The translations under genes were made by a program, and so were the position numbers. Below, one piece after another: positions 1,350-20,766 of a stretch of DNA of 21,045 bases (positions within the stretch are counted from its first letter, which is position 1; each line of letters begins with the position of its first letter). The DNA comes from a virus: positions 1-21,045 of the IMG/VR virus record IMGVR_UViG_3300032046_000256. One strand, 5' to 3'. Under the pieces are notes generated by a model, which ran no database searches, was not told where the DNA came from, and saw nothing but the letters and a program-made list of their open reading frames with translations.

Positions 1350-4300
1350 ATGGCTACTATTCCTCAACCACGAAGCTACGAACAGATCGTCGGGGATCTG
1401 ATTGATGCTCTTCGGGCCCGCCTGGGCCTTAGCGACCTTAGGCCTGGCTCCGGCACATTGTCGTTCATAGAGGCTGCGGCCCAGAGTGATTTTAGGTCCA
1501 GCCAAGACATCTTTGCAATTCTTGATGCAAACTCTGTTGACCGCGCTACCGGAAATGAACTCGATCTGGTGGGAAACGACAACAACGTTCCGCGCCTTAT
1601 GTCTGCTCCGGCTACCGGTGAGGTAACCGTTACCGATGGCAGCTTTACCAAAATTTCTTCTAAGGTGTATCCCGGTACGGTTCCGCCCAATATTGGATCT
1701 ACCGCACTGAACGTTTCAGACGCATCGCAGTTTCAGAATACGGGTGCCGTCTATATTGGACGCAATACTGCCAATTTCGAGGGCCCCATTGGCTATACGG
1801 CGGTAACCCAGATTGGTGCCTATTGGCAATTGGCCCTGGCGACCCCAACTACAAAGTTCCACAACCTGTCCGAAAGTGTGATTGTAAAGCAGGGTGGCAA
1901 CCGAACAATTTCGGCCGGTACTTTGGTGCAGACGCCCCAGGGAAACGTGTCGGTTGCGGTACAGTTCCAGACAACCTTGTCAACTATTATTCCCGATGGC
2001 GAAACTACCATCACGGGCGTACCCGTTGTGGCCCTAACTCCAGGTAGTATCGGTCGGGTGCCTCGGGGTGCCATCAGCGAGGTGCCATCGGCCCCGATTC
2101 CAAACCTAAGTGCCACAAACCCCTTGCCTTTTGTTACAGGTCAAGACCGAGAATCCGATACCGATTATCGAGACCGTATCAAAAGAGCCATTCAGTCTCG
2201 TTCAAAGGGTACGGCCGTTGCCATTGAAAATTCGGTACTGGGCGTTACGTCCCCCGACGAACCCAAGCGCGTAGTGTCGTCCAAGGTGATTGAACAAGTA
2301 GGACTGCCAACTCGCCTTATCGTTGATGATGGCGCTGGCTATGAAGAACTGTCCACTGGCGTCGGGCTTGTCAGTGTGATTGATTCGGCACTCGGCGGTG
2401 AAAAGTATCTCCAGTTGCCGGATCGCGTTGTCGTAAGGGCTCAGCTGATAACAACGCTGGACTCTCCTTTTGTGTTGTCCGATCACGCTATTCTGGCCGT
2501 TATGGTCGGAGGGGTGCGCTCGGAACACACCTTCTATGCCGCCGAATTCAAAACCATTGGAAACGCCACAGCCTTCGAGGTGGCCAGCAGTATCAATGGC
2601 GACGCCGCCCTTCTGTTCTCTGCTGCCACGACCGATGGTGGCAATCGTGTTCGTATTTTCGCCCAGGTCGATACGCACGAAGACCTTCAGGTGACGGTGC
2701 CGACGCTTGGAACCAATGCTAATCTGACTCTTGGGTTTATTGATTTTCAAACCTTTACGCTTAATCTCTACAAAAACGATATACTTTTACACAAGGATGG
2801 GGTGGTTCCGCAGATCTTCAGCGTAGCGCAATCTTCTTGGAATCCGGCAATTGCCAGCGGCGACACCATTACGGTTAACGTAGACGGAACCGGCCCCGCA
2901 ACCTATACGATTAACGATTCGGATTTTGTGATCAACAATACCGGATATCTAACGGTCAACGCCTTTAACAGCTTGGCTTCCTGGGCCATTGTGTTCAATG
3001 CCAAGATTGCCGGTGTAACCTGTTTGGTGTCGGGCAACCAACTGGTATTTCAAAGTAACAAAGGTGCATCGGCAACCGCCTCTTTGGCGATTACCGGCGG
3101 CTCCTTGGTTACTAACGGAATGTTTGCAGTCTCGTCCAGTCAGGGTCTGGCCAACGACTATGAGTTCAACCGGAACAAAGGACAAATTACCTTGGCGGTT
3201 CCATTGGTTTCGACCGACAGGGTAACGGCCGGATCTAGTTTCACACAAGGCTATGTACAGAGCGGGGTCGTCCCGGGTAGTACGGTGGACTTTTTAACCA
3301 CGGCAAAGCTGTGGGTTATTGTCGATGGTAACGCCCAGCCCGTGGTGATTGATGTTCCGTCCGCATCTACATTGGCGGTAACCAATCCGGGCGCAGGTGT
3401 TGTTTGGCGATATCGCATTGTAGGTAACGCAACGGCATTTGCAGCCATAAACCCTGGCGATTGGCTGGTTGTTCTGGACAGTGCCATAACCGACGCCACC
3501 AATCTCGGATACTGGAGAGTTGCGGCCACCGGTCTTCAGGGTGGAACCGATTCGTATGTAGAGGTGGAAAAAAGTGCTGGTGTGGTAGCCAGTTATGTTC
3601 TGGTTGGGGTTGGGGCAGGGGGCGGTCTAATGGCTGCCCGCAGCTCTGAGCCCATGCAGCAAATCGCTTTGGCCCCCGGCGTTACAATTCCCCTAACTAC
3701 AATAGCGGCTTTGATAAATTTGCAACTATTAGGCGCCACGGCCAGTGTGGCGGCGGGTTCGCGCCTTCGACTTACCACGCTAGCCTATGGCACCTCAAAG
3801 GGCATCATGTACGTTGCGGCTAACTTTGAAGGACGTAAGCTTTTGTTTACCGATGCAACCAGCGTTCTGAACAAGACAAGTCACACCGCCTTTGTGGAAA
3901 GTGGTAACGACGAACTAGGAACTCCGCTGTTTGTACATGATGTTGTGGCTACCGGTCCGGCCGTAGAACCGCCCCTTAGCATTGCCTCGACAGTTAACCT
4001 GGTGGCGGTAGCTGGGGCTAGCGCAAGCCACATGATAGGCTTTCTTCGCCCCATTGGTGTCTCCGACAGATTTTCAAGCAACCGCAATAACCACCTTCAG
4101 CTTCAGGATATCGTAACGACTGCCTTGACCTTGAATCCCAAGGCAACCGTCCACGAAGTTTTAACAAACGACCGAATCTTTCCGGCTACTCCCTATGACC
4201 TTGACAGTGAGGATTCTTTGGTAACGGTACTGGACCAGGACGAAATCAACAAGACCTTTGATATCAGGATGGCGCGTCGTATTGCAGTCGCCGGGGTTCC

Positions 4301-5048
4301 AGTACCTCCGTCCAGTAGCAAGTTCTACATTTACGATTTGGATCAAGGTCCCGTTGCCACACCCGATCTGGCGTTTGGCACCGCCTTCAAATTCGACAAC
4401 TTCAAACTCTGGATGAAAGCTCGTACCGTTTTGGATCCGGATGGTGCAAAAAACGCCATTGTCTATCGGTTTGCCGATTACGGTCCCGGCGGTGACGTGT
4501 GTCGAATCGGATATTTTTTGCCCATCGCCTCGAACCTCGCGCTGGGCTCATCTGTTACGACTGGTCAGTACACTTCAATCAATATCGTTCTGGCGTCGGG
4601 CAACGCTCGTAGCCTTTCGCACGACGGAACCACGACGTTTTCGGTAGCGGTGGTGGGCGCCGGACCCTATGACGTTACGTATACGCGGGTAGGTGGCCCC
4701 TCGCCCGACTTTATTGTTAATGGCGTGGTGGTGGGCGATATTTTGACCATTACAAACGCTTCGTCCTTGCTGGCCGCCAACATTGGAACCTGGCGGATAA
4801 CGGCCCGAACTGCCAGTACCATTACGGTGCGACGTTCCGATGCCGGTACGGCAGATGGCGCCAAAGCCCTAAATGTGGCCTCGGCCCTTCAGGTCTACCC
4901 CATCGACCCGGCCTGCACGGCCGCTGCCGTTGTAAGTTACGTCAATACAAATCTGTCTAGCTATGTGTCGGCCATTCTAACAACTTATGATCCACCGGCG
5001 ACACCCAATGATGGCTCTGGAGTAATCGCAACCAGTACCGGATGGTGA
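1350..5048 (+). CDS. Baseplate J-like protein, N-terminal part of an apparently split gene
   Basis: ATG at 1350 has a GGAG Shine-Dalgarno 8 bases upstream. The 1232-residue product begins like Baseplate J/gp47 proteins (ELDLVGNDNNVPR near residue 70), and residues about 215-295 carry the J-family core: PDGETTITGVPVVALTPGSI and then an ESDTDYRDRIKRAIQSRSKG motif. Such proteins form the wedge ring that triggers sheath contraction. After residue 300 the family pattern stops and about 900 residues of beta-rich, Gly/Thr/Val-rich sequence follow, containing at least three copies of one recurrent module and two of another. The expected C-terminal J domain is absent here but present in the next frame (5095-6630). 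The TGA at 5046 is directly overlapped by that other frame, which opens at 5026. This is much longer than usual J proteins (about 300-400 residues). Confidence 0.85.
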   Translation: MATIPQPRSYEQIVGDLIDALRARLGLSDLRPGSGTLSFIEAAAQSDFRSSQDIFAILDANSVDRATGNELDLVGNDNNVPRLMSAPATGEVTVTDGSFTKISSKVYPGTVPPNIGSTALNVSDASQFQNTGAVYIGRNTANFEGPIGYTAVTQIGAYWQLALATPTTKFHNLSESVIVKQGGNRTISAGTLVQTPQGNVSVAVQFQTTLSTIIPDGETTITGVPVVALTPGSIGRVPRGAISEVPSAPIPNLSATNPLPFVTGQDRESDTDYRDRIKRAIQSRSKGTAVAIENSVLGVTSPDEPKRVVSSKVIEQVGLPTRLIVDDGAGYEELSTGVGLVSVIDSALGGEKYLQLPDRVVVRAQLITTLDSPFVLSDHAILAVMVGGVRSEHTFYAAEFKTIGNATAFEVASSINGDAALLFSAATTDGGNRVRIFAQVDTHEDLQVTVPTLGTNANLTLGFIDFQTFTLNLYKNDILLHKDGVVPQIFSVAQSSWNPAIASGDTITVNVDGTGPATYTINDSDFVINNTGYLTVNAFNSLASWAIVFNAKIAGVTCLVSGNQLVFQSNKGASATASLAITGGSLVTNGMFAVSSSQGLANDYEFNRNKGQITLAVPLVSTDRVTAGSSFTQGYVQSGVVPGSTVDFLTTAKLWVIVDGNAQPVVIDVPSASTLAVTNPGAGVVWRYRIVGNATAFAAINPGDWLVVLDSAITDATNLGYWRVAATGLQGGTDSYVEVEKSAGVVASYVLVGVGAGGGLMAARSSEPMQQIALAPGVTIPLTTIAALINLQLLGATASVAAGSRLRLTTLAYGTSKGIMYVAANFEGRKLLFTDATSVLNKTSHTAFVESGNDELGTPLFVHDVVATGPAVEPPLSIASTVNLVAVAGASASHMIGFLRPIGVSDRFSSNRNNHLQLQDIVTTALTLNPKATVHEVLTNDRIFPATPYDLDSEDSLVTVLDQDEINKTFDIRMARRIAVAGVPVPPSSSKFYIYDLDQGPVATPDLAFGTAFKFDNFKLWMKARTVLDPDGAKNAIVYRFADYGPGGDVCRIGYFLPIASNLALGSSVTTGQYTSINIVLASGNARSLSHDGTTTFSVAVVGAGPYDVTYTRVGGPSPDFIVNGVVVGDILTITNASSLLAANIGTWRITARTASTITVRRSDAGTADGAKALNVASALQVYPIDPACTAAAVVSYVNTNLSSYVSAILTTYDPPATPNDGSGVIATSTGW
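2460..2738 (+). repeat. Module 1 copy a (J-like gene)
   Basis: Protein-level repeat: PFVLSDHAILAVMVGG, then a strand, then FKTIGNATAFEVASSINGDA (a T-A-x-E-V-A-x-x-I-N helix), ending in strands NRVRIFAQ and ANLTLGF. Aligned by eye with the copies at 2853 and 6976. Confidence 0.6.
2853..3130 (+). repeat. Module 1 copy b (J-like gene)
   Basis: Begins SGDTITVNVDGTGPATYTIN, has the helix region YLTVNAFNSLASWAIVFNAK, and ends GNQLVFQSNKGASATASLAI followed by TGG. More diverged than copies a and d. Confidence 0.5.
3450..3580 (+). repeat. Module 2 copy 1 (J-like gene)
   Basis: Pattern GD-x-L ... N-x-G-x-F/W-x-I/V: here NPGDWLVVLDSAITDATNLG followed by YWRVAATG and SYVEVEKSAG. Confidence 0.6.
3672..3850 (+). 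repeat. Module 1 copy c (J-like gene, degenerate)
   Basis: Contains PGVTIPLTTIAALINLQLLG and SRLRLTTLAYGTSKGIMYVA. It has the strand-helix-strand order of module 1 but lost the first strands; a doubtful member. Confidence 0.35.
4731..4845 (+). repeat. Module 2 copy 2 (J-like gene)
   Basis: VGDILTITNASSLLAANIGT followed by WRITARTASTITVRRSDAG. Confidence 0.65.
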
Positions 5049-5095
5049 AAACTGGATTCTGTCGACCGATCTGACGGGTGGGACCGAAAACCTGG
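5026..5095 (+). other. Frame junction inside the Baseplate J-like gene
   Basis: Frame 3 (the 1350 gene) is closed by TGA at 5046-5048. Frame 1 has its last stop at 5023-5025 and is then open to 6630, so the two frames overlap only in 5026-5048. Frame 1 between 5041 and 5095 encodes an uninterrupted, protein-like DGENWILSTDLTGGTENL before the first possible start (GTG 5095), which has no convincing Shine-Dalgarno. Joining the frames needs a net shift of +1 (one base skipped or one extra base present). There is no long homopolymer in the overlap; only doublets such as CC and GG occur. This could be an assembly or sequencing indel, a real mutation, or translational frameshifting near the UGA. 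Confidence 0.7.
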
Positions 5096-6630
5096 TGCTT
5101 AAAAAAACTCTAGCATTTTCCAGCGCCTTGTACTCCTTGACGGGCGAAGAAATGCGTTTAATTGCCACAACCGCCGATCAGTTTTCGCGATACCTCAACG
5201 TATTGGGTACCTCCGGGATCGTTACGGTTGCCGGGCTTTCGACGACTTCGCACGACAACAAGCTTCAGATCTACTCTGATGTCCTTGGATCTAGTGGATC
5301 CGTTCAGGTGACGGGTGGAACCGCAAACATTACTGGCGCTCCGGTTTTAGGTTCGGCCGCTACGGTCGACACTTCCTATACGAAGCTGCGAATTGCCTCG
5401 GCTCTAAAGCGCGGTTTTCATGCCAACCAGTGGGTACGCGTTACCTCGTCTTCGGTGCAGCCCAAGGCTCTGGGCTTCGATGCCAGTACAACTGCCCTTA
5501 GCGTAACAGTTACGGCTGGGCTGGTTAACACTATTGATATTACGGCTGGTCCGGGAACCTTCCGAACCGCCAAGCCCCACTCGGGAGATGCCACGACAGA
5601 ATTTCAGTTAGAAAAGCAAGGCAGTTTCATGGCGTTGGTACATTCTGGCTTTACGGCTCCGGCGTTTGTGGGAGCCGGTATTGTGGAGGGCGACTGGGTA
5701 ACGTTGGGAACAGCTTTTACGGCCGTCAATCGTGGTACCTTCAGAGTCGTGCGGGTGTATGGAAATTCTATTTATTTTGAGAACCCACTGGGCGTCGAAG
5801 AAATCGTTGTGCCGGGTGCGGGCAATCCCACGTTTGTCAGTTATGACAGTGTGCTGCCCGGCGACACCCTTAGTATCGGTAACAACATCTTGGGGGCTGC
5901 CAACGTAGGATCGTTTGTGGTTGTCGCAGTAAACAGCCCATCGCAGTTAGTGGTAAACGGCACCATGGTAAACGCCGGGCCCACGGTTCTGGGGGCGTCC
6001 AACACCCAGGTGCAAATCCTGGAGGGCGTTGCGTTCCAGGCGGTTAAACAGATTCATACCATAGCCATCAACCCCTCGACCTCGGATCAACTAGATGTAA
6101 TTCTGCGCGGAACGGCCCTGAACAGCAAGATTTCGGTGGTAGGGGGCGCAACGCTTGAAGCTCTCAATAAATTCAATTTCAATACGGACATTCAACCCGG
6201 TATTGACGCATACCGAAAGTATCAAGGTCTAATTCTTGAATCAAACCGCGTAGTCTATGGCGACCCCTTAAGTCCAACCTCGTATCCGGGCGTTAAGGCT
6301 GCGGGTGCCCAGCTCAACATCGAGGGCCCTATTGTGAAGCGCATCACGGTTGCGCTGTCGGTACGGGTACGTACCGGTACGCCCTTTAGTCTTGTTGAGG
6401 ATCAAATTCGTAGTAGTGTGGCGGCGGCTATCAATCTGGTTCCATTGGGCAATCCGGTAGTTCTTTCCGATATCGTGTCGGCTGCCGGTTCGGTCGACGG
6501 AGTTCTTGCGGTCTCGGTAGTGTCACCAACGTTTGATTCAACCCACGATCTTATTACGGTCCAGGCGTTTGAGAAGCCGTTGGTAATTGACGCCGACGCC
6601 GACATCACTATTTCGCAGGTCGGTGCCTAG
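5095..6630 (+). CDS. Baseplate J-like protein, C-terminal part of the split gene
   Basis: If translated alone, the first start codon is GTG at 5095, giving 511 residues; coding sense extends upstream in frame to about 5026. The last 105 residues match the C-terminal domain of Baseplate J/gp47 proteins: an IVKRITVALSVRVRTGTPFS strand region, EDQIRSSVAAAINL, a GNPVVLSDIVSAAGSVDGV segment, and a final strand ending DADADITISQVGA. The N-terminal J domain lies in 1350-5048, so the two frames together would make a protein of about 1760 residues. The middle part has two adjacent copies (5686-5810 and 5851-5960) of the GD...N-x-G-x-F module and the tail of another module (GSSGSVQVTGGTAN, about 5290-5330). 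The TAG stop overlaps the next GTG start by one base, suggesting coupled translation. Confidence 0.8.
   Translation: MLKKTLAFSSALYSLTGEEMRLIATTADQFSRYLNVLGTSGIVTVAGLSTTSHDNKLQIYSDVLGSSGSVQVTGGTANITGAPVLGSAATVDTSYTKLRIASALKRGFHANQWVRVTSSSVQPKALGFDASTTALSVTVTAGLVNTIDITAGPGTFRTAKPHSGDATTEFQLEKQGSFMALVHSGFTAPAFVGAGIVEGDWVTLGTAFTAVNRGTFRVVRVYGNSIYFENPLGVEEIVVPGAGNPTFVSYDSVLPGDTLSIGNNILGAANVGSFVVVAVNSPSQLVVNGTMVNAGPTVLGASNTQVQILEGVAFQAVKQIHTIAINPSTSDQLDVILRGTALNSKISVVGGATLEALNKFNFNTDIQPGIDAYRKYQGLILESNRVVYGDPLSPTSYPGVKAAGAQLNIEGPIVKRITVALSVRVRTGTPFSLVEDQIRSSVAAAINLVPLGNPVVLSDIVSAAGSVDGVLAVSVVSPTFDSTHDLITVQAFEKPLVIDADADITISQVGA
5158..5343 (+). repeat. Module 1 copy e (second J-like frame, C-terminal half)
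   Basis: ADQFSRYLNVLGTSGIVTVA then NKLQIYSDVLGSSGSVQVTG-GTAN. The GSSGSVQVTGGTAN ending matches GPSSTVRVMGGQAQ of the copy in the next gene. Confidence 0.5.
5686..5810 (+). repeat. Module 2 copy 3 (second J-like frame)
   Basis: EGDWVTLGTAFTAVNRGTFR followed by VVRVYGNSIYFENPLGVEE. The FENPLG phrase recurs as VSNPLG in copy 5. Confidence 0.65.
5851..5960 (+). repeat. Module 2 copy 4 (second J-like frame)
   Basis: PGDTLSIGNNILGAANVGSF followed by VVVAVNSPSQLVVNG. Directly follows copy 3, so the module is tandem here. Confidence 0.6.
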
Positions 6631-8261
6631 TGTCAAATGCACAAGACAGACTGCGCCAGTTCCTCTCGCCTGCCATTGGTGGTCCCAATACAGATGCGCT
6701 GCTGGAGGCATTAGCGATAGGCGACGATCTCAACGATGCCAACATCGAAGCCATTCATGATCAACTGTACTTGGTTACTGCGACTGGACGGTATCTAGAT
6801 AGGTTGGCCGCCAACGTTGGATTTGTCCGACCCGTTAACGTGGGGCTATCGGATGAAGCCTTTAGCAACTTGGCCGTGGTATCAACAGCCACAAAGCAGA
6901 TTACTCCAGTCTTGTTAGATCTTATGGAAATTTTTTACGGACCTGAGTCCACCAGGGCCTTTGTGGTCTCGACTGCAAACGAGCCGTTTGCGCTGGCCGA
7001 CGGGATGCAGCTCGCGATGGAATTTGATGGACAGGAACCGTTAACCGTTACGTTTAGATCGACCGAATTTGCCAACATTACAGCCGCGACCGCAAAGGAA
7101 GTCGCCGACACTATCACGAAGCAGATTCGAAATTTAACCGATTCCCTAGCGGCCAAGGCCTATGCGGTTGACTACACCGACGATACCACCGGTCTTATTT
7201 ACGTTAAGTTGTTTTCGGGAGCCAAAGGGCCCTCCAGTACGGTGCGAGTGATGGGCGGTCAAGCTCAGAACTTTTTGCTATTTCCGGCACCGTTGGCTAC
7301 CACCCAGACAATCGGTACCCAATGGCAAGTGGCCATTACGGGCTCGGCCCTGAGGTTTACGTGGATTGGCGGCACCAACCCCAGCCTGGGGCTAGTTAAT
7401 GTAGGCGATATTGTAAGTGTGTTTGGGGGCGTCTTCTTTTCCGAAAACCGGGGGTCCTTCGAAATCATATCGGTGGTTGACGGGACCGTAACGAATGCGC
7501 GGTTTACGGTTTCAAATCCGTTGGGGATTGCCCAGGCCGTTATACAGCTGGCCGCCAACGATATTACCTTTATGAATCCCGTCCGACGCTCGATTTTATC
7601 TACCGCTCGATACGCTACGGTTTTTGAAGTGGCGCCCAACGTTCTTAACGTATTTCTCCCGGCCACAACCCAGGTGGTGGATCGTCAACTTGAGGATGCG
7701 GCCCACCTTCATTTAACCGCACTAGAAAGCGATTTCATGGGCCCCTACATATATGACACAACGCTTGCTGGTGTCCTAACCGAAGCCCAGACCTCCCTGG
7801 TAAGTCTAATTGAACCTGGACAAACCTATCGGACCATTAGTGTGGTGGATGCGGTTGACTTTGTCGACGGTGTCGGCTATCTCATGTTTGACTTCGGGTA
7901 CGATAACCAAGAGGGCCCGGTCAAATACGTTGGGCGGCCCAGTAGTCAGCTGCTGCTAGTTGATCCTGCCTATTCGTTCCTTAAGCTCCATTCACCGGGC
8001 GCCAATATTACGTTTTTGTCGTCTCGGGCACCCATTGACTTAAAAGAAGACGGATCACAATTTCCGTTCTATCTCACCGGAATCGCCAATGGACGTCTGT
8101 ATGCCGAAGATCTAATTGACCAGCTGGTGGCGACCGGTCTAACTCTGATTATCACGATTTTGTATCCCGGGGACGTAGGACTGGGGAACGCGGGACTGCC
8201 CACTACCGGTAACCCACCACTAAGCGATGCCGTTCGGGTGTGGGGGGGGGATCCGCCATAA
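6630..8261 (+). CDS. Baseplate/tail structural protein in the gpI position
   Basis: Starts with GTG at 6630, overlapping the preceding TAG by one base; 543 residues. The N-terminal 100 residues (DQLYLVTATGRYLDRLAANV, then GLSDEAFSNLA) resemble the entry region of P2 gpI/XkdT-type baseplate proteins, but the match is weak. Residues about 116-218 hold a copy of a module also found in the J-like gene (EFANITAATAKEVADTITKQ, ending STVRVMGGQAQN). Residues 258-302 hold a copy of the GD...N-x-G-x-F module. The C-terminal 200 residues (VDGVGYLMFDFGYDNQEGPV, later ILYPGDVGLGNAG) were not assigned to a family. Its place between J and the fibre matches gpI of P2-like phages, which is the main reason for the call. 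The last codons lie on a run of nine G (8242-8250). Confidence 0.6.
   Translation: MSNAQDRLRQFLSPAIGGPNTDALLEALAIGDDLNDANIEAIHDQLYLVTATGRYLDRLAANVGFVRPVNVGLSDEAFSNLAVVSTATKQITPVLLDLMEIFYGPESTRAFVVSTANEPFALADGMQLAMEFDGQEPLTVTFRSTEFANITAATAKEVADTITKQIRNLTDSLAAKAYAVDYTDDTTGLIYVKLFSGAKGPSSTVRVMGGQAQNFLLFPAPLATTQTIGTQWQVAITGSALRFTWIGGTNPSLGLVNVGDIVSVFGGVFFSENRGSFEIISVVDGTVTNARFTVSNPLGIAQAVIQLAANDITFMNPVRRSILSTARYATVFEVAPNVLNVFLPATTQVVDRQLEDAAHLHLTALESDFMGPYIYDTTLAGVLTEAQTSLVSLIEPGQTYRTISVVDAVDFVDGVGYLMFDFGYDNQEGPVKYVGRPSSQLLLVDPAYSFLKLHSPGANITFLSSRAPIDLKEDGSQFPFYLTGIANGRLYAEDLIDQLVATGLTLIITILYPGDVGLGNAGLPTTGNPPLSDAVRVWGGDPP
6976..7283 (+). repeat. Module 1 copy d (gpI-position gene)
   Basis: PFALADGMQLAMEFDGQEPL, then FANITAATAKEVADTITKQI, then LIYVKLFSGAKGPSSTVRVM-GG. 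The best-preserved copy of module 1. Confidence 0.65.
7401..7536 (+). repeat. Module 2 copy 5 (gpI-position gene)
   Basis: VGDIVSVFGGVFFSENRGSF followed by EIISVVDG and ARFTVSNPLGIAQ. Confidence 0.65.
8242..8250 (+). repeat. G9 homopolymer at a gene junction
   Basis: Nine consecutive G lie in the reading TGG GGG GGG GAT, three codons before the stop of the 543-residue protein and 11 bases before the next ATG. A shift of -1 here joins the 543-residue frame to the frame of the downstream small protein (8261-8728), because that frame is open back through GTG 8240. Two tandem GGG codons preceded by G allow perfect re-pairing after a -1 slip. The run could also act as a crude Shine-Dalgarno for the next gene, be a length-variable site, or be a base-calling problem. 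Confidence 0.6.
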
Positions 8262-8728
8262 TGCAAACTGTTACAATCACCGGGGCAAGGCTAAGGCTTG
8301 TCATCAACAATAAGGTCGTGGGACTTGCTACGAGTATTTCGTATTCAGTCGACTATGGCAAAAAGGCGTTGCGGGGCATCGATACGCCATTTCCTCAAGA
8401 AATCGTGCCGGGGCAACAAACCGTCAAGGGTACGATTGCGTGCATCCGGATTCAAGGCATGAGCCTTGAAAGTTACGGAATTGTAAGTCCTCAGCTTTCG
8501 ACCGTAACAACTCCCTTGGGGGAAGGAGCCCCAAGCCCAGGAACACCGGCCACGGGGTTGTTGGCCGATTCTTACATCAGTATCGCGCTGATCGACCGGA
8601 TAACTGGCGAGGCTGTTTTTCAGGCCGACCAGGCCAGCGTTCTATCGCAAAATTGGTCTGTTGGGGCTCGGGGAATCATGCAGGGCTCATTTGAGTTCGA
8701 GGGAGTGGTGCAGCCAGCACAACAATAG
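8261..8728 (+). CDS. Small tail structural protein, tail-tube-like
   Basis: Chosen start is ATG at 8261, sharing its A with the TAA of the upstream gene (TAATG), giving 155 residues; an in-frame GTG at 8240 is less likely because it begins inside the G run. The protein starts with beta strands TVTITGARLRLVINNKVVGL, continues with a YGKKALRGIDTPFPQEIVPG turn region, and ends with a strand pattern SVGARGIMQGSFEFEGVV. This layout (short ligand-like strand, R/D/T-rich loop, C-terminal F-x-F-x-G strand) resembles phage tail tube and tube-initiator proteins. Its position after baseplate genes, not beside a sheath gene, suggests a tube-end or hub-adaptor role rather than the major tube subunit (inference). 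No profile search was possible. Confidence 0.5.
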   Translation: MQTVTITGARLRLVINNKVVGLATSISYSVDYGKKALRGIDTPFPQEIVPGQQTVKGTIACIRIQGMSLESYGIVSPQLSTVTTPLGEGAPSPGTPATGLLADSYISIALIDRITGEAVFQADQASVLSQNWSVGARGIMQGSFEFEGVVQPAQQ

Positions 8729-8745
8729 GGGCAGAAGCAATCTTA

Positions 8746-8770
8746 GGAATAGGCTTCCCGCCTCTTTTCC
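8746..8770 (+). terminator. Possible weak terminator hairpin
   Basis: In the 73-base gap before the fibre gene, AGGC (8751-8754) can pair with GCCT (8760-8763) around a five-base loop, extended by GGAA/TTCC with an internal bulge, and CTTTT follows the core stem. The stem is short and the T run small, so it may only reduce read-through or be chance. Apart from this and the Shine-Dalgarno GGAGAT at about 8787, nothing was recognised in the gap. Confidence 0.25.
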
Positions 8771-8801
8771 TGGTTTGCCTAACTACTGGAGATAATTAAC
8801 A

Positions 8802-11800
8802 ATGGCTATCAAAAGGCAAGCGAACCTCTTACAACAACAGCGCCTAGACATTCCACACCTACGCGCTATTGAATCTGCCGTCTCCAACGACTTTGACGCA
8901 TTGCTTCGTGGGTGGGTAACGCGCGTAGGCTTTCCTTACTTCATTCGAGGCTTCAGAATTACCTATGCGGTCGGGGGGCTCGCAGAGGCGCTTTATGTCG
9001 AGGTGGCTGATTCGGCTATTTTTCATTCAACCGCGACGGAATCAGGTACTGTTCTGACGGTACCGGCTGGGACGGCTGCCGAAATTCTAGGCCCCACTAA
9101 CTCCAAGGTAACTGGTAGTTTTATTGCAGCCGCTACTAACTTTGTAGCGCTGGACTACACACGGGCACCCGATTCCACCACCAACGATCTCGTTAAGTTT
9201 ATTAACCCCGACACCAAAGTAGAGTTTGCCAAAACCGTTCCGCTGGCCCAGTCCCTTAACTACCAATTTGTTATAAGCCCGGCGGGCTTTGGTACGCTGT
9301 TACCCATCGCCAAGGTTGTAACGGATGCGTCCAACCGAGTGGTGTCCATTACGGATTGCCGCCCCATGCTGATGAGACTGGGATCCGGTGGAGTCGTTCC
9401 CGATCCAACCCACGTTTATCCGTGGCCAGCGGGGCCCGACGTTCCGGGTAGCGGTAGACTGGAAAACCCTTCTACGTCGTCAACTCCCGGTATCGTCAAC
9501 ACACCCTTTGAGGGCGGCGACAAAGAAATCCAAAGCCTGAAAGATTGGCTCGATGCGGCAATGAGCCGAATCAGGGAGTTGGATGGCGGGACCTACTGGT
9601 ACAGTCCGAGCATTGCGTCGTTGACAGGCCTGGCCCAAAACCAAAATGTCCATATCCTCGACAGTGGGGTTGTCTGGAACTGGAATTTGGCGACTCAAGT
9701 TTTGTCTTGGAGCGGGTCGCTGACGTTCCAGGTTCCCGGGGCCGTTGCCAACAACACGTTGGCGGCCGGTAACGTTACAATTATTGCGGGGCAGTGTGCA
9801 TACGTCACAATTGATCGGACGGTTGTGGTCCCGACCCCCGTACCGTTCATAAACGTAGTGGACGACGACGCGGTCCCGGTCGACGAAGACAATTTTGTCT
9901 TTGCCCGTCGAGATGGCAATGACATAATCGTGGGGACCCATTCGTTCCGAGTCAAACCGACCGACGCTACCGAGAGTGACTATTCGGATCATCTTTCAAA
10001 AGAAAAGCTTCTCAAGCCCATTGTTACACAAGCAGGCGCCAATACCGGTTTTGCAATTTATCCGTCCCAAAGGGTGTCGGGCAATAAACGTAGATACATC
10101 TATATTCAACCAAAGGAATCTTCTCTTTTTCCTCGTACTGGGTATTTGGCCGGTACTTACGACGGCGGTGCCAACAACGACCAACTGACAACCATCGATT
10201 TTGTCAATAACGCCGGTACCCTGGAGGTCCACGCAACACTGCCGTCGATTGTTCCGCCAATCTTGGCGTCCGACGCCATTGCGACCTGGACAAGCAAATT
10301 TACGCCGGTTCTGATTGCAGTTTCAACTGCCGATGCCCTTACGGTTACGTTCGGCAATCACTATGGTTCGTTGGCTGCCGCCATAGCGGACGCGGCCATG
10401 CCGGTTCCGGGCAACCCCGATTACCCGGTAGCCGTGGCTATCATTGAAGTTAATGGTGCCGGGGTTATTCAGCCCATCGTTGAGAACCATCTGATAGACC
10501 GTCGCCCAACGGGTGCGGGCGGTAGCGGTTCGGGTGGCGGGTCCGGATCCGTAACCGAATATACTGCGGTCGGCGGCGAGACTCTTATTTTGTTACCCCT
10601 GGGTCAAACCTATACGCCAGGCCTGGGTGATTTGGCTGTAATTGAAAACGGTGTCGAACTCTTCGCAGATCTTCCCGGCCCCATTTTCCGTGACTACGCC
10701 GAAACAGATGGCACGCACATTACATTGCATATCCCGGCAGGTGTCGGAGATCGATATAAGTTCCGTACTGGCGCGGGCGTAACGCCAGGTACGATAGGTG
10801 ATGTGGTGGGACCGGCGGCAGCAACCGATAACGCCATCGTTAGATTTGACTTGGCAACCGGTAAGTTGATCCAGAACTCTCTAGTGCTTCTAGATGACTT
10901 TGGTAGCCTAACTGGTATCCTGGACCTTACGATGACCGGAACGTTGACCGGGGGCGCTTCGCCCTTCATAATCAAAACGGTTGAGGCTAACGGAGCTGGA
11001 GCCATTGGGTTTAAGCTGGATACAACCAATACACTAAATACTAACGGATCCAAGATTTTAAGTGTTCGAAACAATACCGTTGAGCATCTCGTGATACGTC
11101 GTGGTACCGACTATGGACTAAACGCTGACTATGCCTTGGTGGAGCTGTTTGGTAAGACCGGAGCTTTGTCGCTACAACTTTCTTGTGATGCTACGGGGGG
11201 TAGTCGCGTTTACCCGCAGGGGACCTTTACCATCGATCAGTTGACCGATCCGACTTACGGTGCTGGGTATAAAGAAAATTTAGTGTCAATATCCAACGCT
11301 AGCAACCCGAGCATCGTGGCGTCGTCAGAGCTGGACAGCGTTGGTAAGGTTGATCTGGAAATGAGCGGTGGAAATGTCGGCGGTGGACCCGGAACGTATC
11401 CGTCCTTCTTTGTCGATGTAATCGACCAAGCAACCGCAGAGGGTACGGCTGAGCTAGGTCTGTTTACCGAAGACAACACTGCATGTAACCGTACGGACGT
11501 TCGCTTTAACGCTGTTACTAAGTATGGCTATTTGGGTATTGCTAGTACCGGGGCTTTCTTTGGTGGCAGCGCCCTAGTTAATCCGGCCAGTTGGTTATTT
11601 GAGTCGGGCGCGATAGACGGGGCTACCGTTATCGCTTACGATCTCGACACATTCAATACACTAGCAAACGCCGCAGCAAAACTTTTGCGTTTAAGTAACA
11701 ATGGGGTTCCAAAATTCGTTCTTGACAAAGACGGTAACATCACAACGGTCGGAACCATCGCGGGATTTTCACCCAATTCCCTCTATGCCCTGAAGGGCGA

Positions 11801-12740
11801 TGTTCTGATTGGTACGGCTGTCCCGGGTACACCGGCAATTCTTTCGGTTGGAGCCAATCCCAACGGATTTGTATTGGCCCTCGATAATGCTACCGCCACA
11901 GGCCTTAAGTGGAGTTCGGCGGGCGCCGGTGACGTAATTGGTCCGGGGCTTTCCACCAACAATGCATTGGTTACCTGGAACGGTATCAGTGGAACTAACG
12001 TCAATAACTCCCTCACGACTCTAGACGCTTTGGGTATCATGACCCATGGAGGTGCCGTCAACTTCAAGCGTAAGACCAATGCAGATTTAGCTATTGCGCT
12101 GGCAAATGCGTTGAAGGCTATGATGAACGCCCACGCGGCCGATGGCGCCGAGCACTTTGCTGGCGGCGGGCCTACTCCGGACATAGTCAATTTTCCAGTG
12201 GTCGTCGCAAACGCAACTGACCTAACAACTCTGTACCCGCTATGCTTGGCTTTGTTTACGGCGTATGCGGCCCATAATGTGGATGCAATTAACGCCGGAC
12301 CAACCTACCATAACGCTCAGTCTCTACCGGGCAACGCACTGGTGTCGGCCTTAATACCGACCTCATTAGATGAGGCGGTCGCGCGTCTCAACGACCTTAA
12401 GGCAAAATATAATTTGCATGACGCGGACGTCATCAACCATACGACAGGCGGCCTGCATCAAGAGGCAGTTGTTGATTCGTCGGGCGACTATACCACCAAC
12501 AACGAAACGGTTGTCGCCATGGTAGATACAACTTCCATACGGGCCGTTACGCTATCGGATACCGATAAGCAATTGGGTCGGCTCGTTGTCATCAAGGACG
12601 AGTCGGGTAACGCCACGGCCATGCCCATCACGGTTACGCCCCAGACGGGAACTGTCGATGGAGCCCCCAACGTTTCCATCACGGCCGACTACGGTTCCCT
12701 TAGGCTCTATAGCGATGGATCCGACTGGTTCTCAATGTAA
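8802..12740 (+). CDS. Large tail fibre protein
   Basis: ATG 8802 follows a GGAG about 10 bases upstream; 1312 residues. The N-terminal 190 residues (LLQQQRLDIPHLRAIESAVS ... GFPYFIRGFRI) look like a virion-attachment domain of the kind linking fibres to baseplates (DUF4815-like, tentative). A Gly/Ser linker (GGSGSGGGSGSV, about 10518-10548) separates it from the shaft. The shaft starts with the widespread fibre motif GDVVGPAAATDNAIVRFD, seen again in altered form at 11928. Between these are two copies of an LDT-N-L...K-L-L-x-x-N motif. A His-rich helical region follows (12112-12466), and the end, ITADYGSLRLYSDGSDWFSM, is the kind of closing strand seen at many fibre tips. It would bind the host surface. 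Next to the spike gene, it suggests a phage with two host-contact proteins. Confidence 0.8.
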   Translation: MAIKRQANLLQQQRLDIPHLRAIESAVSNDFDALLRGWVTRVGFPYFIRGFRITYAVGGLAEALYVEVADSAIFHSTATESGTVLTVPAGTAAEILGPTNSKVTGSFIAAATNFVALDYTRAPDSTTNDLVKFINPDTKVEFAKTVPLAQSLNYQFVISPAGFGTLLPIAKVVTDASNRVVSITDCRPMLMRLGSGGVVPDPTHVYPWPAGPDVPGSGRLENPSTSSTPGIVNTPFEGGDKEIQSLKDWLDAAMSRIRELDGGTYWYSPSIASLTGLAQNQNVHILDSGVVWNWNLATQVLSWSGSLTFQVPGAVANNTLAAGNVTIIAGQCAYVTIDRTVVVPTPVPFINVVDDDAVPVDEDNFVFARRDGNDIIVGTHSFRVKPTDATESDYSDHLSKEKLLKPIVTQAGANTGFAIYPSQRVSGNKRRYIYIQPKESSLFPRTGYLAGTYDGGANNDQLTTIDFVNNAGTLEVHATLPSIVPPILASDAIATWTSKFTPVLIAVSTADALTVTFGNHYGSLAAAIADAAMPVPGNPDYPVAVAIIEVNGAGVIQPIVENHLIDRRPTGAGGSGSGGGSGSVTEYTAVGGETLILLPLGQTYTPGLGDLAVIENGVELFADLPGPIFRDYAETDGTHITLHIPAGVGDRYKFRTGAGVTPGTIGDVVGPAAATDNAIVRFDLATGKLIQNSLVLLDDFGSLTGILDLTMTGTLTGGASPFIIKTVEANGAGAIGFKLDTTNTLNTNGSKILSVRNNTVEHLVIRRGTDYGLNADYALVELFGKTGALSLQLSCDATGGSRVYPQGTFTIDQLTDPTYGAGYKENLVSISNASNPSIVASSELDSVGKVDLEMSGGNVGGGPGTYPSFFVDVIDQATAEGTAELGLFTEDNTACNRTDVRFNAVTKYGYLGIASTGAFFGGSALVNPASWLFESGAIDGATVIAYDLDTFNTLANAAAKLLRLSNNGVPKFVLDKDGNITTVGTIAGFSPNSLYALKGDVLIGTAVPGTPAILSVGANPNGFVLALDNATATGLKWSSAGAGDVIGPGLSTNNALVTWNGISGTNVNNSLTTLDALGIMTHGGAVNFKRKTNADLAIALANALKAMMNAHAADGAEHFAGGGPTPDIVNFPVVVANATDLTTLYPLCLALFTAYAAHNVDAINAGPTYHNAQSLPGNALVSALIPTSLDEAVARLNDLKAKYNLHDADVINHTTGGLHQEAVVDSSGDYTTNNETVVAMVDTTSIRAVTLSDTDKQLGRLVVIKDESGNATAMPITVTPQTGTVDGAPNVSITADYGSLRLYSDGSDWFSM
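10797..10920 (+). repeat. Fibre repeat A
   Basis: GDVVGPAAATDNAIVRFDLA followed by TGKLIQNSLVLLDDFG. A widespread phage fibre motif; diverged second copy at 11928-12050. Confidence 0.75.
10999..11100 (+). repeat. Fibre repeat B
   Basis: AIGFKLDTTNTLNTNGSKIL followed by SVRNNTVEHLVI. Second copy at 11622. Confidence 0.65.
11622..11763 (+). repeat. Fibre repeat B, second copy
   Basis: ATVIAYDLDTFNTLANAAAK followed by LLRLSNNGVPKFVLDKDGN. Shares the LDT-x-N-T-L and K-(I/L)-L-x-x-x-N-N spacing with 10999-11100. Confidence 0.65.
11928..12050 (+). repeat. Fibre repeat A, second copy
   Basis: GDVIGPGLSTNNALVTWNGI followed by SGTNVNNSLTTLDALG. Closes the A-B-...-B-A arrangement of the shaft. Confidence 0.7.
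12112..12466 (+). repeat. Three His-containing helical repeats in the fibre
   Basis: Three units of a helix ending in H plus a following H: LKAMMNAHAADGAEHF (from 12112), LALFTAYAAHNVDA then TYHNA (from about 12244), and LKAKYNLHDADVINHTTGG then LHQ (from 12397). The repeated phrase is roughly L-x-x-x-x-(Y/N)-x-x-H-x-A-D with a second His 5-12 residues on. Confidence 0.6.
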
Positions 12741-12752
12741 TAAGGAACGGGT

Positions 12753-14771
12753 ATGACACACACGCAAGTAGCATTCAGACAATACTCAAAACCAGTTGTC
12801 ACTGTAGTCGATGGGGTGTCCTATCCCGACGGAGACTTTAACGTCCTGAGATTAACAACCGACGATCCCGTAACTTTTCCTGGGCCAGCTGCCGTTATTC
12901 AGGCCGCATACGATTCGGTCAAGACCCTTGGGGGCACCCTATATATCAGGGCCGGTTCGTATCCGCTGGAAACTGAAGTAAGCTGTAGTGGAACGACCGC
13001 CCCGGTTACTATTACGGGCGATGGAGACGCCACAGCTATTGTAAAATCGGGTGGCGTAGCCAGTGTACGTTCAGTATTGAATCCCGGAGACATTGGAGTT
13101 AATACGGTGACCGTTACGCTTCCGGGCGGCGGCATTATTCGGTTTACAAGGTCAGCGGGAACTTGGGCCTACCAACCATATCCAAACGAGAACCTTACGG
13201 TTGCGGGAAACTTTAACGTAGCCAACCGAGGAACCTTTACTATTAAAGATGCTACCACGACAGTAATCGATGTGTACAGTGTTACGGCCGGATTTGCGGA
13301 AGCGGGCATAACCCTGTCTAGTGTTAACGATATGGCTGTCCGTGGTTGTGCGTTTCGTGTTACCGAAAACATTCAAAACATAACGATAGAAAAACTAGGA
13401 CTTTCGCGACCCGCAACAGTACTGGGGAGTGGGGAACTGGTGGTCGTTGAACAGGGCGCAGACCACATAACGGTACAGGACTGTATATTGAGTGGAAATC
13501 CAAATGCAGCAGGGTCGGACATTCTGGTCGTCGGACGCAGTTCAGACACCACAGATATTGATGTTCTGAGAAACAGATTTATAGGTGACGCCGATGTCAT
13601 CACCAGAAGGAGCTTTGGCGTTTCGCTTGTGGGACGCGTACAGTTCATAACGACCGAACGTAACGGCTTTGAGGGTCTACGAAATCGACATGTCGTGGTT
13701 CAAGATTTTGCCTCCGCACCTACATTGCTGGGTCACGACATTTGTATTGAATGTAATAACGCGTCGGGAGAAATGGCGCCGTCTGGTTTGTCGTGGCCCA
13801 TCGGTTCGGTGTCGGCAAGCATTTTGGTTAGCGGGATGTTTACGAAGGTCGATATTCTTGACAACAAACTCGACTTTACGCTCTCCCACGGTAACGTTGC
13901 GATGAGTGGGGTGTCTGTGACGAGTGGAAATACTCCTGCCGGGCATGCCGCTGCCGATATGCACGTTAATGTCCGAAACAACCGTGTATATCTATCGCGA
14001 TTGGGTGGCACGTCCAACCTGCTAGATCGTGCCGTGAGCGTCGACTACGCTTCGGCATTTATTGGTGCTTCGCCCAGGGCTAAATTTGTCGATGTATCAG
14101 ACAACGACTGGAGAATTGAGTCTGGTCTCGAAACGTCGACGGGATATGTTGGATACGCAAGTGTCCTCCGGTTTTGCAACAACAAGGGAATCGGTACCAG
14201 CGGGGTGTTTTTGGAGCGGTGTACCGGCGGTACCCAGGGCGGCAACGTAGTCGTAGGAAACTATCTGGAGGCTACGGCCAATGGCCGCGATGGCCTGAGG
14301 CTAACTAACGATAGCTGGTTTACTATCCAGGGCAATACCCTTAAGTCGGCGGGCGGTGGCGGATTAGGGCTGAATGTAGTGTCCTGTCCGAACAGTGTCA
14401 TTGGACCTAACCTGGTGACTCAGGAATCGTCTATTGTGAGTGCCGATCCGGCCACAAGCTACAATGTCAATAAACAAATCGTAAAGGCGTGGGCACGAAC
14501 GAACTACGACGGTACGTTGTTGGCTGGTTACAATCTTACGGTGGTAGCGACGCCAACTGGTGGTGATTGTGAATATACCTATACGTTTCTTAGGCCCATG
14601 AAATCTGCCAATTATTCTATCGTATCAATACTTCTTGGTCATAACGAAAAAATCGTTTTGGTAGACGACTCACCTTTGCCAACCCTAACGGCCTTTGTGT
14701 TAAGGGTTTACTCTGGGGCATCCAATAACGTAGGTCACTTCGTGATGGTTTGCGGGGAATCGGCCGACTAG
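12753..14771 (+). CDS. Tail spike, right-handed beta-helix (pectate-lyase-like fold)
   Basis: ATG 12753 follows AAGGAA with a five-base spacer; 672 residues. After a short N-terminal part comes the classic first turn of a phage beta-helix spike: AAVIQAAYDSVKTLGGTLYI followed by RAGSYPL. Most of the rest shows the short N/G/V-rich rungs typical of such helices, for example IQNITIEKLGL, DHITVQDCILSGN, VDILDNKLDFTL and RDGLRLTNDSWFTIQGNTLK. A stretch at about 13095-13300 interrupts the early rungs and carries the GD-like N-x-G-x-F module shared with the baseplate proteins. The C-terminal 110 residues are a separate beta domain (receptor or trimerisation role possible). Spikes with this fold commonly bind or degrade surface polysaccharide, but I could not identify catalytic residues. 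The substrate is unknown. Confidence 0.8.
   Translation: MTHTQVAFRQYSKPVVTVVDGVSYPDGDFNVLRLTTDDPVTFPGPAAVIQAAYDSVKTLGGTLYIRAGSYPLETEVSCSGTTAPVTITGDGDATAIVKSGGVASVRSVLNPGDIGVNTVTVTLPGGGIIRFTRSAGTWAYQPYPNENLTVAGNFNVANRGTFTIKDATTTVIDVYSVTAGFAEAGITLSSVNDMAVRGCAFRVTENIQNITIEKLGLSRPATVLGSGELVVVEQGADHITVQDCILSGNPNAAGSDILVVGRSSDTTDIDVLRNRFIGDADVITRRSFGVSLVGRVQFITTERNGFEGLRNRHVVVQDFASAPTLLGHDICIECNNASGEMAPSGLSWPIGSVSASILVSGMFTKVDILDNKLDFTLSHGNVAMSGVSVTSGNTPAGHAAADMHVNVRNNRVYLSRLGGTSNLLDRAVSVDYASAFIGASPRAKFVDVSDNDWRIESGLETSTGYVGYASVLRFCNNKGIGTSGVFLERCTGGTQGGNVVVGNYLEATANGRDGLRLTNDSWFTIQGNTLKSAGGGGLGLNVVSCPNSVIGPNLVTQESSIVSADPATSYNVNKQIVKAWARTNYDGTLLAGYNLTVVATPTGGDCEYTYTFLRPMKSANYSIVSILLGHNEKIVLVDDSPLPTLTAFVLRVYSGASNNVGHFVMVCGESAD
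13182..13290 (+). repeat. Module 2 copy 6 (tail spike)
   Basis: PNENLTVAGNFNVANRGTFT followed by IKDATTTVIDVYSVTAG. GD is replaced by NE, but VANRGTF matches the AVNRGTF of copy 3. It interrupts the early beta-helix rungs. Confidence 0.55.
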
Positions 14772-18121: not shown

Positions 18122-19759
18122 CTACTTCTTGGGCTCCTCCGGAACCCCAGGGGTCGGTAGTGAGGTTCCCTTGGCAGCGATTGCCGCCTCGCGAGCCAGC
18201 CGGTCGCGCTTTAGGTCATCGGAACTGGCGTTGGGGTTGGGCTTAGCCCGGGAAGTTTCAGATCTAAGTCGGTCAGATGATTCAACAATTTCTTTACCGT
18301 TGGCCTGGACCCCACCTTCGGCCGTTTCCTTGCCGACCACATTATCCCAGTTGGTTTCGACGGAGACCTCGCCTAGATCGTCCCCGTGGGTCTGATACCA
18401 CTCAAATTTGCTATTGCACACCACGATTTTGCCTCGGGCTTGGGATCGACACTTGTCAATGTGGAACTTGATGATGCCCTTGGTTCTATCGTCATCGCTC
18501 CGGTTGATCGTAATGAAGTTCGAAGCCACTTGCGGCACCCCCCAGGACTCACTGGTATCTTCCATGATGAGGGCCCGCTCTTTTCCATCTCGACTGAGAA
18601 TAGAGCCGCTTCGGTTGGTTTGGATGGCGACGAGAGCATGAAAATTTTCACTTTCAGCTAACGCGGCAAAGCGCGAGTAGATGAAGTACATACGCTGTCG
18701 GTATTCGTCGCGCTTACCATATTCGCAGGTCAGTTTCGCGGGAAAGTCGTCGACGAGCAAATCGAACCCCTTGCCGTGAGTACGCTTATGTTCCCGTTGT
18801 TTCTCCAGGATCACATCCATGACGTGCTCAACGGTGGTGCCGGTGGGAGAATTGAGGTGAACGTATTCGAGATGTTCGTGGAGACGCCTTTGGGCTTCCT
18901 GAATGGCTCCAAGCTTTTCGGGATTTTGGTACCATGCAATTAGGTCGCTCTCGGGACATTTCAACATACAGAGTAGAATCTGTTTTTGAATATTGTCCGA
19001 GTGGTTCTCGTGAACCATCATTAAGACATCTTTACCAGCTCGAATGTTATGAATCGCAACCGTACCCAGAAAACTGGTTTTGCCCTGAGAGATGGCACCC
19101 AGTATGACAGTAAAGTCTCCAGGGGCAAGACCGCCATCCCCTGCATCTCCGTTCAGTAAGGCCCGATTAAATAGCTCGCTTCCGGTCGTGCAGGCGTTCT
19201 TACGGCGCCAGATCATTCGATCTACCACGCTGGTTTTGGTGTCGGCAAACGAAACAGTCTTGATCGGATCAAAATCCGCACTTTTGATGGCCGCAAGTTT
19301 ATCTTCGGCATACTTAGTAGCGGGTTCGATTTGGTGATTTTTGTACATCTTCATAAGGGTTGCGGCGGCCTCTTGAATTAAAACTGCTTTAAGCCATGCG
19401 GTACATTCTCGGACTACTACGTCAAGGCCAATATGGTCGGCCATTAGCATACAGCGGTCGATCTCTTGATAAAACTCGTTAGCCTTATCCATTCCGAGGG
19501 ACGCAAACATACTCTTTAGTTCTTCGGCGGTGGGGCGACGCTTGTATTTTTCTATGTTGTAGAACTCCAACATTTTTTCCCAAATCTCACCGCGCAGGCC
19601 CTTTCCAAACCAGTGGTATTTGATTTGCTCTCGGGCCTTCAGGAAAAACACTTCATCCCGAATGAGATGGCCGATAACGGCCTCTTGTTTTCGTTCGTCG
19701 AACGGAATGATTGGGTCAGTTACGACTTCGTAAAAATCTTGTGGGGGTTGTTCATCCAT
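18122..19759 (-). CDS. DnaB-like replicative helicase
   Basis: 545 residues from ATG 19759. N-terminal helical domain (about 20-130) as in DnaB/gp41-type helicases, then the RecA-like motor: Walker A GAISQGKTS (221-229), Walker B LLVDD (334-338), a Q-containing sensor IQTNR (379-383) and a DKCRS motif (435-439) in the usual basic-finger region. It should be a hexameric ATPase unwinding the fork, loading with the primase encoded just upstream. Differences from standard DnaB: the segment after Walker A reads MMVHENHSDN where DnaB has the SLEM phrase, and the last 75 residues are polar and probably disordered (SSDRLRSETSRAKPNPNASS). The start has only a weak Shine-Dalgarno; 44 bases separate it from the primase gene. 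Confidence 0.9.
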   Translation of the reverse strand: MDEQPPQDFYEVVTDPIIPFDERKQEAVIGHLIRDEVFFLKAREQIKYHWFGKGLRGEIWEKMLEFYNIEKYKRRPTAEELKSMFASLGMDKANEFYQEIDRCMLMADHIGLDVVVRECTAWLKAVLIQEAAATLMKMYKNHQIEPATKYAEDKLAAIKSADFDPIKTVSFADTKTSVVDRMIWRRKNACTTGSELFNRALLNGDAGDGGLAPGDFTVILGAISQGKTSFLGTVAIHNIRAGKDVLMMVHENHSDNIQKQILLCMLKCPESDLIAWYQNPEKLGAIQEAQRRLHEHLEYVHLNSPTGTTVEHVMDVILEKQREHKRTHGKGFDLLVDDFPAKLTCEYGKRDEYRQRMYFIYSRFAALAESENFHALVAIQTNRSGSILSRDGKERALIMEDTSESWGVPQVASNFITINRSDDDRTKGIIKFHIDKCRSQARGKIVVCNSKFEWYQTHGDDLGEVSVETNWDNVVGKETAEGGVQANGKEIVESSDRLRSETSRAKPNPNASSDDLKRDRLAREAAIAAKGTSLPTPGVPEEPKK

Positions 19760-19803: not shown

Positions 19804-20766
19804 TTACCGCTTCTTGGGAATGTCAAAAAAGAGATCGTTGCCGGTTACACGCTGTGCCTTTTTGAATTCGTTCAGTACCTCCTGGGGGGTTGAGTCTCCG
19901 AGGTCTTCGCGGCCCGGAGGGGTTCGTAGCAGATATGCCTCCAGGTTGCATTCACGCGCCAGGTCTGGCACAATCGAGAGAGTGTCGTTATCGAGCGCAA
20001 AGTAGATCTTCTTGATCCCGGCCTTCTTGAGCAGTTCGATTTGTTGGGGCGTAATGTGCTTGCCGAGGGTCGCAACATTGCCACCACAACAGTGGGCCTT
20101 CAGGGCATCGAACGGACCCTCACATACGACAGCGTGGTCTCGGCCCTTTAGACGATCATAGAACATCACCATGTTACGCCGGGGGAGGTCTCGGCTAGAT
20201 AGAATCTTAATTTCGCCAGGCTTAACCTGATCGATCATACGGGCCTGGTAGCCGTAACAGATCCCATCGGCTATAAGGGGAAAGATAATCCTGCGGAAAC
20301 GTGCCCAATAGCGTAATTGGTACAGTTTGGCAATGGGGGCCGGTATTCCACGCGACCTGAGGTATTCAAGGCCAGGAATGGCATCTGGGGCATCCACAGG
20401 CACCATTTCGGGAGACATCACGAAGGGTACGAGCGGTTTTTCGGGCTCGGGGGCTAGATCCTCAAAATTGAGTTCATCCGGGAGGCCTGAGAGATTTCGG
20501 TAGGAGGTGTCAAGGCCGTACAAAATGCGTTTGATCTCTTTGGGGGGTCGACCAGTCAGTACGTGGAGGACATAAGCGGGGTTGGAACCTTTGAATCCAT
20601 CAGATTCGCTGCAAACCCAACAGATCCAGAATCCCTCTTCTTTGTCTAGGTAAAGCTTATCTTTCTTACCGCATCGAGGGCAATCCATAACGAAGGATCG
20701 GGAGTTAGTTTTGTATGGAATCCCCGCATCGTCGAGGATTGACGATATGGTGAATTCGAGGCTCAT
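19804..20766 (-). CDS. DnaG-like primase (zinc finger plus TOPRIM)
   Basis: 320 residues from ATG 20766, which overlaps the stop of the HNH gene (ATGA). Residues 29-52 hold a CHC2-type zinc site with four cysteines: CPRC (29-32) and CWVC (49-52). Residues about 158-175 carry the R-R-I-I-F-P-L phrase that precedes TOPRIM domains of primases. The TOPRIM core follows: VVCEGPFDALKA with E216, and YFALDND with D259 and D261. It would make RNA primers at the fork and work with the helicase. It is short, lacking the C-terminal helicase-interaction domain of bacterial DnaG, as usual for phage primases. The helicase and primase are separate genes, unlike T7 gp4. Confidence 0.92.
   Translation of the reverse strand: MSLEFTISSILDDAGIPYKTNSRSFVMDCPRCGKKDKLYLDKEEGFWICWVCSESDGFKGSNPAYVLHVLTGRPPKEIKRILYGLDTSYRNLSGLPDELNFEDLAPEPEKPLVPFVMSPEMVPVDAPDAIPGLEYLRSRGIPAPIAKLYQLRYWARFRRIIFPLIADGICYGYQARMIDQVKPGEIKILSSRDLPRRNMVMFYDRLKGRDHAVVCEGPFDALKAHCCGGNVATLGKHITPQQIELLKKAGIKKIYFALDNDTLSIVPDLARECNLEAYLLRTPPGREDLGDSTPQEVLNEFKKAQRVTGNDLFFDIPKKR

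Follow-up and report, generated by a model that had tools for sequence, protein, structure and literature searches.

Why should one small beta domain recur in several virion proteins of the same phage, and is it a roaming decoration or an old structural part? The question is raised by a viral record of 21,045 nt (IMG/VR record IMGVR_UViG_3300032046_000256), which was analysed over its whole length and is referred to here as the window. The initial annotation, made from the bare sequence, described six copies of a unit with a GD...NxG signature, distributed over a J-like baseplate protein, a protein in the gpI position and a beta-helix spike. All features described below lie on the + strand.

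The wedge proteins and their relatives

The window belongs to the relatives of Myxococcus phage Mx1, a group of large phages with contractile tails, most of them uncultivated. Mx1, with a genome of 170 kb, is the best named relative, showing 41-42% identity in the C-terminal part of J and in the gpI-position protein, and is the one named isolate found within the group. A profile search with the N-terminal part of J brought in 80 IMG/VR contigs and three MAG contigs; those IMG/VR relatives that are close to a full genome measure 144-182 kb. In the IMG/VR scans, a query with J2 only and one with gpI plus Mx1 gave no match.

The J-like baseplate wedge protein is encoded in an N-terminal piece (1350..5048; Pfam Baseplate_J, PF04865, E 2.4e-12; phrog_6, E 5.7e-30) and a C-terminal piece (5095..6630; phrog_6, E 1e-4), residues 412-511 of which match solved J C-terminal domains with Z 10-11. 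Its assignment to Baseplate J rests on a PF04865 score of 47.2 bits against a cut-off of 21.1, on the phrog_6 core and on the C-terminal fold. The core and the C-terminal domain are thus common to the window J and the Baseplate J / T4 gp6 wedge. Unlike the latter, the J proteins of the relatives are very large (about 1,850-2,620 aa), because they contain several hundred residues of inserted modules, barrels included.

J had been read as a split protein. In this contig it does occupy two ORFs in different frames, but in 79 other loci, Mx1 among them, it is one ORF, so the window break is local. The frame change, within 5026-5095, is not shared by the relatives; J is otherwise broken only in L051 and L089, each time at a different place. 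A programmed frameshift was rejected on these grounds, and the break near 5048 is a local one, either an assembly error or a mutation.

The gpI-position protein (6630..8261) has a weak phrog_6 match at its N-terminus (E 1e-3) and the 41-42% identity noted above to its Mx1 counterpart, WNM70275.1. It shares more with J than the barrel. A 'S.TVRV.GGQAQN' stretch ahead of the gpI barrel (7203..7271) matches J at 5263-5328, ahead of barrel copy J2a, and both are covered by a single hhalign hit (E 3.8e-12). A second common module, 'F..ITAATAKEVADTIT' ('TAxEVAxxI'; 6954..7118), has its J counterpart at about 2439-2597 (E 2.8e-8 for gpI against the J family), and a third, 'V.DA..F...G...EGP..Y' (7833..8015), at about 1710-1886 (E 7.3e-6). 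Since gpI and J have these further modules in common, common descent or mosaic growth may explain why they also share the barrel; the pattern is in line with wedge proteins that grew long ago by paralogy or in mosaic fashion. In Mx1 WNM70275.1 (L005:35800-38748), a kelch propeller is seemingly inserted within a sister barrel module.

Homology of the barrel copies

A regular expression for the GD...NxG signature finds five matches in the window, four in J (positions 3456, 4734, 5689 and 5860) and one in the gpI-position protein (7404); when the four proteins were shuffled at constant composition, 3,000 rounds gave 0.011 matches on average and never more than 1. The unit as a whole measures about 65-75 residues. 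Held-out HMMs were trained without one protein at a time, with the Mx1 orthologues added, and family HMMs were applied as well; E values are given below in that order. Copy J1a (3408..3605; E 5e-4 and 1e-10) occupies site Ja, which is filled in 53/57 J proteins of relatives. Copy J1b (4674..4898; E 4e-7 and 1.5e-13) lies at a lineage-restricted site, and its position in the copy tree is close to the Mx1 and L012 copies. Copies J2a (5644..5829; E 7e-5 and 5e-17; high-confidence model) and, directly after it, J2b (5821..6000; E 4e-4 and 5e-9) occupy sites Jd and Je, each filled in 50/57 relatives. The single gpI copy, Ia (7350..7571), is the weakest of these in the held-out test (E 1.4e-3) and matches the family HMM at E 6e-20. 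Beyond the copies described here, including the spike copy discussed below, the family HMM finds none in the window at E 1e-3.

Every J and gpI copy is therefore recovered by held-out HMMs and also carries the signature, and the proposal that one domain is present in several virion proteins holds for J and gpI. The Mx1 gpI copy is likewise detected (domain E 9e-6), and two copies in Mx1 WNM70315 came up unprompted. In its first round a barrel HMM picked up 262 domains across 84 loci, and none of the shuffled or reversed decoys scored below E 1e-3. Profile-profile comparison, proposed at the outset as a check, aligns J and gpI over a block that covers the barrel. Pairwise similarity is low: BLAST between different window proteins is clearly significant for the best pair only, gpI and J2a (E 2.6e-5).

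A beta fold had also been foreseen, and structure prediction bears this out. The gpI copy, modelled alone from 51 sequences (pLDDT 91.2, pTM 0.82), forms a predicted 7-strand barrel. The J2 model, built from 32 sequences, has a mean pLDDT of 78.7, with the barrels at about 90. Strand order is identical in the high-confidence J2a and isolated gpI models, and it is on strand order that the agreement rests.

Could the signature, with its GD turn and NxG turn, have arisen convergently in unrelated small barrels? The domain is short, the copies are only 14-52% identical to the gpI copy, and the fold type is so common that unrelated barrels score nearly as high in structural comparisons. Convergence nevertheless has to contend with the held-out detection, the clean decoys, the common order of seven strands and the hhalign hit over the barrel-containing block. 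For the J and gpI copies it is disfavoured, and overall we regard it as very improbable. At the level of protein sequence, the J and gpI copies are shown to be homologous.

The spike is a different case. Here the count of six copies in three proteins stands only in part: the five copies in J and gpI carry the full signature, but the sixth is partial and lacks the GD. The spike itself (12753..14771) has a Pfam Beta_helix match (E 0.014) below the family's cut-off. Its candidate copy (13137..13337) reads NENLTVAGNFNVANRGTFTI, with the second half of the signature (N-x-G-x-F) alone present. The held-out HMM gives it a domain E of 4e-3 and a whole-sequence E of 0.2. A profile iterated on the relatives, with the spike kept out of its training throughout, scores it at 17.9-20.1 bits (E 2.6e-5 to 1.3e-4 in 1,117 proteins); 2,000 shuffles of the spike reach at most 9.1 bits. 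The region thus matches the family profile without the GD and is probably a divergent barrel copy, the weakest of all, although a convergent beta-hairpin signature is possible at this site. No relatives of the spike were found in IMG/VR, and phage records give at most a weak partial match to its C-terminal part.

A common barrel type without a library entry

That the domain lacks a name, as first suspected, is confirmed for the libraries searched: no family in Pfam, PHROG or NCBIfam covers the barrel, and the profile built here makes the family searchable. Against PDB sequences, the barrel profile finds nothing under E 0.05. Among predicted viral proteins, the best structure matches come from uncultured phages (TM 0.72-0.79) and include several J-like proteins as well as one named 'endosialidase, beta barrel domain'. 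For the J2 model, EF-Tu barrels are further matches (Z about 10).

For the isolated gpI copy, the top solved matches are the endosialidase barrels of phi92 (Z 7.0) and K1F/NF (Z 6.2-6.4) and the FCCH domain of E1 (Z about 6), with generic barrels of helicase Upf1, V-ATPase, riboflavin synthase and flavin reductases within about 1-1.5 Z of them. The likeness to the endosialidase barrel (PF12195, End_beta_barrel; 4hiz, 1v0e, 3ju4) amounts to Z 6.4-7.0 over 77-78 residues, below the threshold of 8 and near unrelated barrels, and none of 45 GD...NxG copies matches PF12195 at E 1. Context differs as well, in that the endosialidase barrel is part of a catalytic tailspike and the present ones of baseplate wedge proteins. 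The FCCH domain of E1 (PF16190) may be a similar barrel (Z 5-6.1 over 74-79 residues); here too the curated cut-off is not reached (best E 0.07-0.15, with E 0.071 in 1/45 copies; 13.4 bits against a cut-off of 29.5 for the extra Mx1 copy), and FCCH sits in the ubiquitin-activating enzyme E1, a context that the present barrels do not have. Judged from the models, then, the barrel would be of a common, known type, and its likeness to endosialidases is no proof of endosialidase ancestry. RIFT-related domains are a widely shared class found in many tail and neck proteins (PMC10684548). Domain sharing of this kind is therefore already known, and the present family is a fresh member, set apart from RIFT-related small barrels by its own signature and its site-fixed distribution.

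The same proteins contain sister 'HGxxVGD...FxY' modules, which resemble the barrel family (hhalign score 22.2, where 60 column shuffles do not exceed 10.3) and, as 'HGxxVGD...Y', reach PF12195 at a best E of 0.0077, in 2/23 members. TAL-effector rows obtained for the sister module were rejected as summed repeat noise, every printed stretch being under 5 bits.

The structural matches bring up the idea that the barrels are carbohydrate-binding modules, giving a weak multivalent grip on host surface or slime. The K1F endosialidase has three polysialic-acid sites, of which the barrel is one. This barrel is both a sialic-acid site and a hotspot of host discrimination (PMC12632334). By analogy, the endosialidase barrels at the top of the gpI matches and the presence of a copy in the spike could point to binding. 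Against this, the scores of FCCH and of barrels with no relation to endosialidases differ by no more than about 1 Z, no surface patch is conserved across sites, and the copies are found within core proteins of the wedge and in a protein whose gene neighbours that of the portal. We consider a carbohydrate-binding role unlikely, if still worth keeping in mind.

Fixed sites, history and possible role

The barrels in J sit between conserved N- and C-terminal cores. J has up to six copies and gpI typically one; in each of 65 gpI-type ORFs there is one. Besides the near-universal sites Ja, Jd and Je, J has the additional sites Jb, Jc1, Je2 and Jx, so some sub-lineages have gained or lost copies. A third carrier, a protein of about 330 aa encoded in the large records, often has two detectable copies. 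In Mx1 this is WNM70315.1 (L003:7617-8612), a conserved protein with two barrel copies whose gene lies between terminase and portal, and a relative of it was present in 10/10 genomes searched. Farther afield, a domain match was seen in 1/200 genomes sampled evenly from one bacterial phylum, so the barrel is uncommon in that phylum, and tblastn with the consensus domain against 50,697 phage records gave zero matches.

A tree of 228 copies requires 13 changes for 11 site groups, where the minimum is 10 and the shuffled mean 147; it is built on 75 columns and leaves many forks unresolved, with a clear site signal. As copies group by site, duplication preceded the diversification of the group and was followed by inheritance in place. 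These observations bear directly on the initial annotation's suggestion of a mobile domain, passing from one tail gene to another, as a decoration of this particular phage's baseplate. Such mobility would accommodate a divergent copy in an unrelated spike, and movement between genes is seen for other modules in the relatives. Yet the barrels of J and gpI keep their sites in almost every relative, their tree follows those sites, and a barrel copy in one gene shows no DNA-level similarity to a copy in another; nor does the window contain any DNA-level repeat between genes. For J and gpI the suggestion is largely refuted, and as a general account we hold it to be distinctly improbable. On sequence evidence, the barrel appears instead to have belonged to the baseplate for a long time, at fixed positions, across the phage group. 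The spike copy, which vertical evolution of the wedge does not explain, is the sole candidate for a true transfer and could be one.

The reading that we favour, and think rather likely to be correct, is that the barrel dates back to the ancestor of the group as a structural module of the baseplate wedge, duplicated early, inherited in place and serving as a spacer or contact piece. Duplication would have occurred before the group diversified, partly within larger blocks common to J and gpI. It would have produced a layout of typically at least three copies in J, one in the gpI-position protein and two in the 330-aa protein, each presumably inherited in place since then. The barrels may widen the wedge as rigid spacers and points of protein-protein contact, with faces onto which adjacent wedge proteins and fibres could dock. 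The copy in the spike would be a divergent single acquisition or a remnant.

Conservation is in keeping with a spacer or contact role. Mean identity is about 0.21-0.36 in the barrel-bearing middle of J, against 0.42-0.55 in its cores. Across sites, conservation falls on the signature Gly, Asp and Asn plus hydrophobics, with no common polar or aromatic patch. The lower conservation of the middle, together with the retention of turn and hydrophobic residues, speaks for spacers or contacts rather than for a single conserved ligand site; low surface conservation would also fit a binding module whose specificity varies. Contacts between proteins, which had been suggested at the outset, are plausible. 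A bolder version, which we put forward as a long shot, is that J, gpI, the 330-aa protein and, here, the spike dock to one another via their like barrels. In that case the layout of much of the tail in this group would be dictated by a single duplicated module. In practical terms, the fixed sites can serve as landmarks when the very large J and gpI proteins of this under-described phage group are annotated.

DNA-level copying between genes does occur among the relatives, in modules other than the GD...NxG barrel. In L006, a sister barrel module common to J and a kelch-propeller protein (L006:10666-10839 and L006:19525-19698) is 77.6% identical in DNA over 174 nt and is a recent intergenic copy. 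A 'YYVWYNV...AAxVAxATAAAIN' module is likewise shared at the DNA level between J and a fibre (L016:14551-14734 / 20279-20462; L055:15326-15433 / 21020-21127) or between J and gpI (L075:15794-15907 / 18150-18263). Two look-alike processes can thus be told apart, an old, site-fixed duplication for the barrel and recent DNA-level copying for other modules of J, gpI, fibre and kelch genes. Finally, proteins encoded downstream of J in three loci (L017:17596-19650, L020:17728-19965 and L044:16817-20197) contain tandem 'NNSGGSINSSTGxYxAG' repeats, which by appearance may be immunoglobulin-like.
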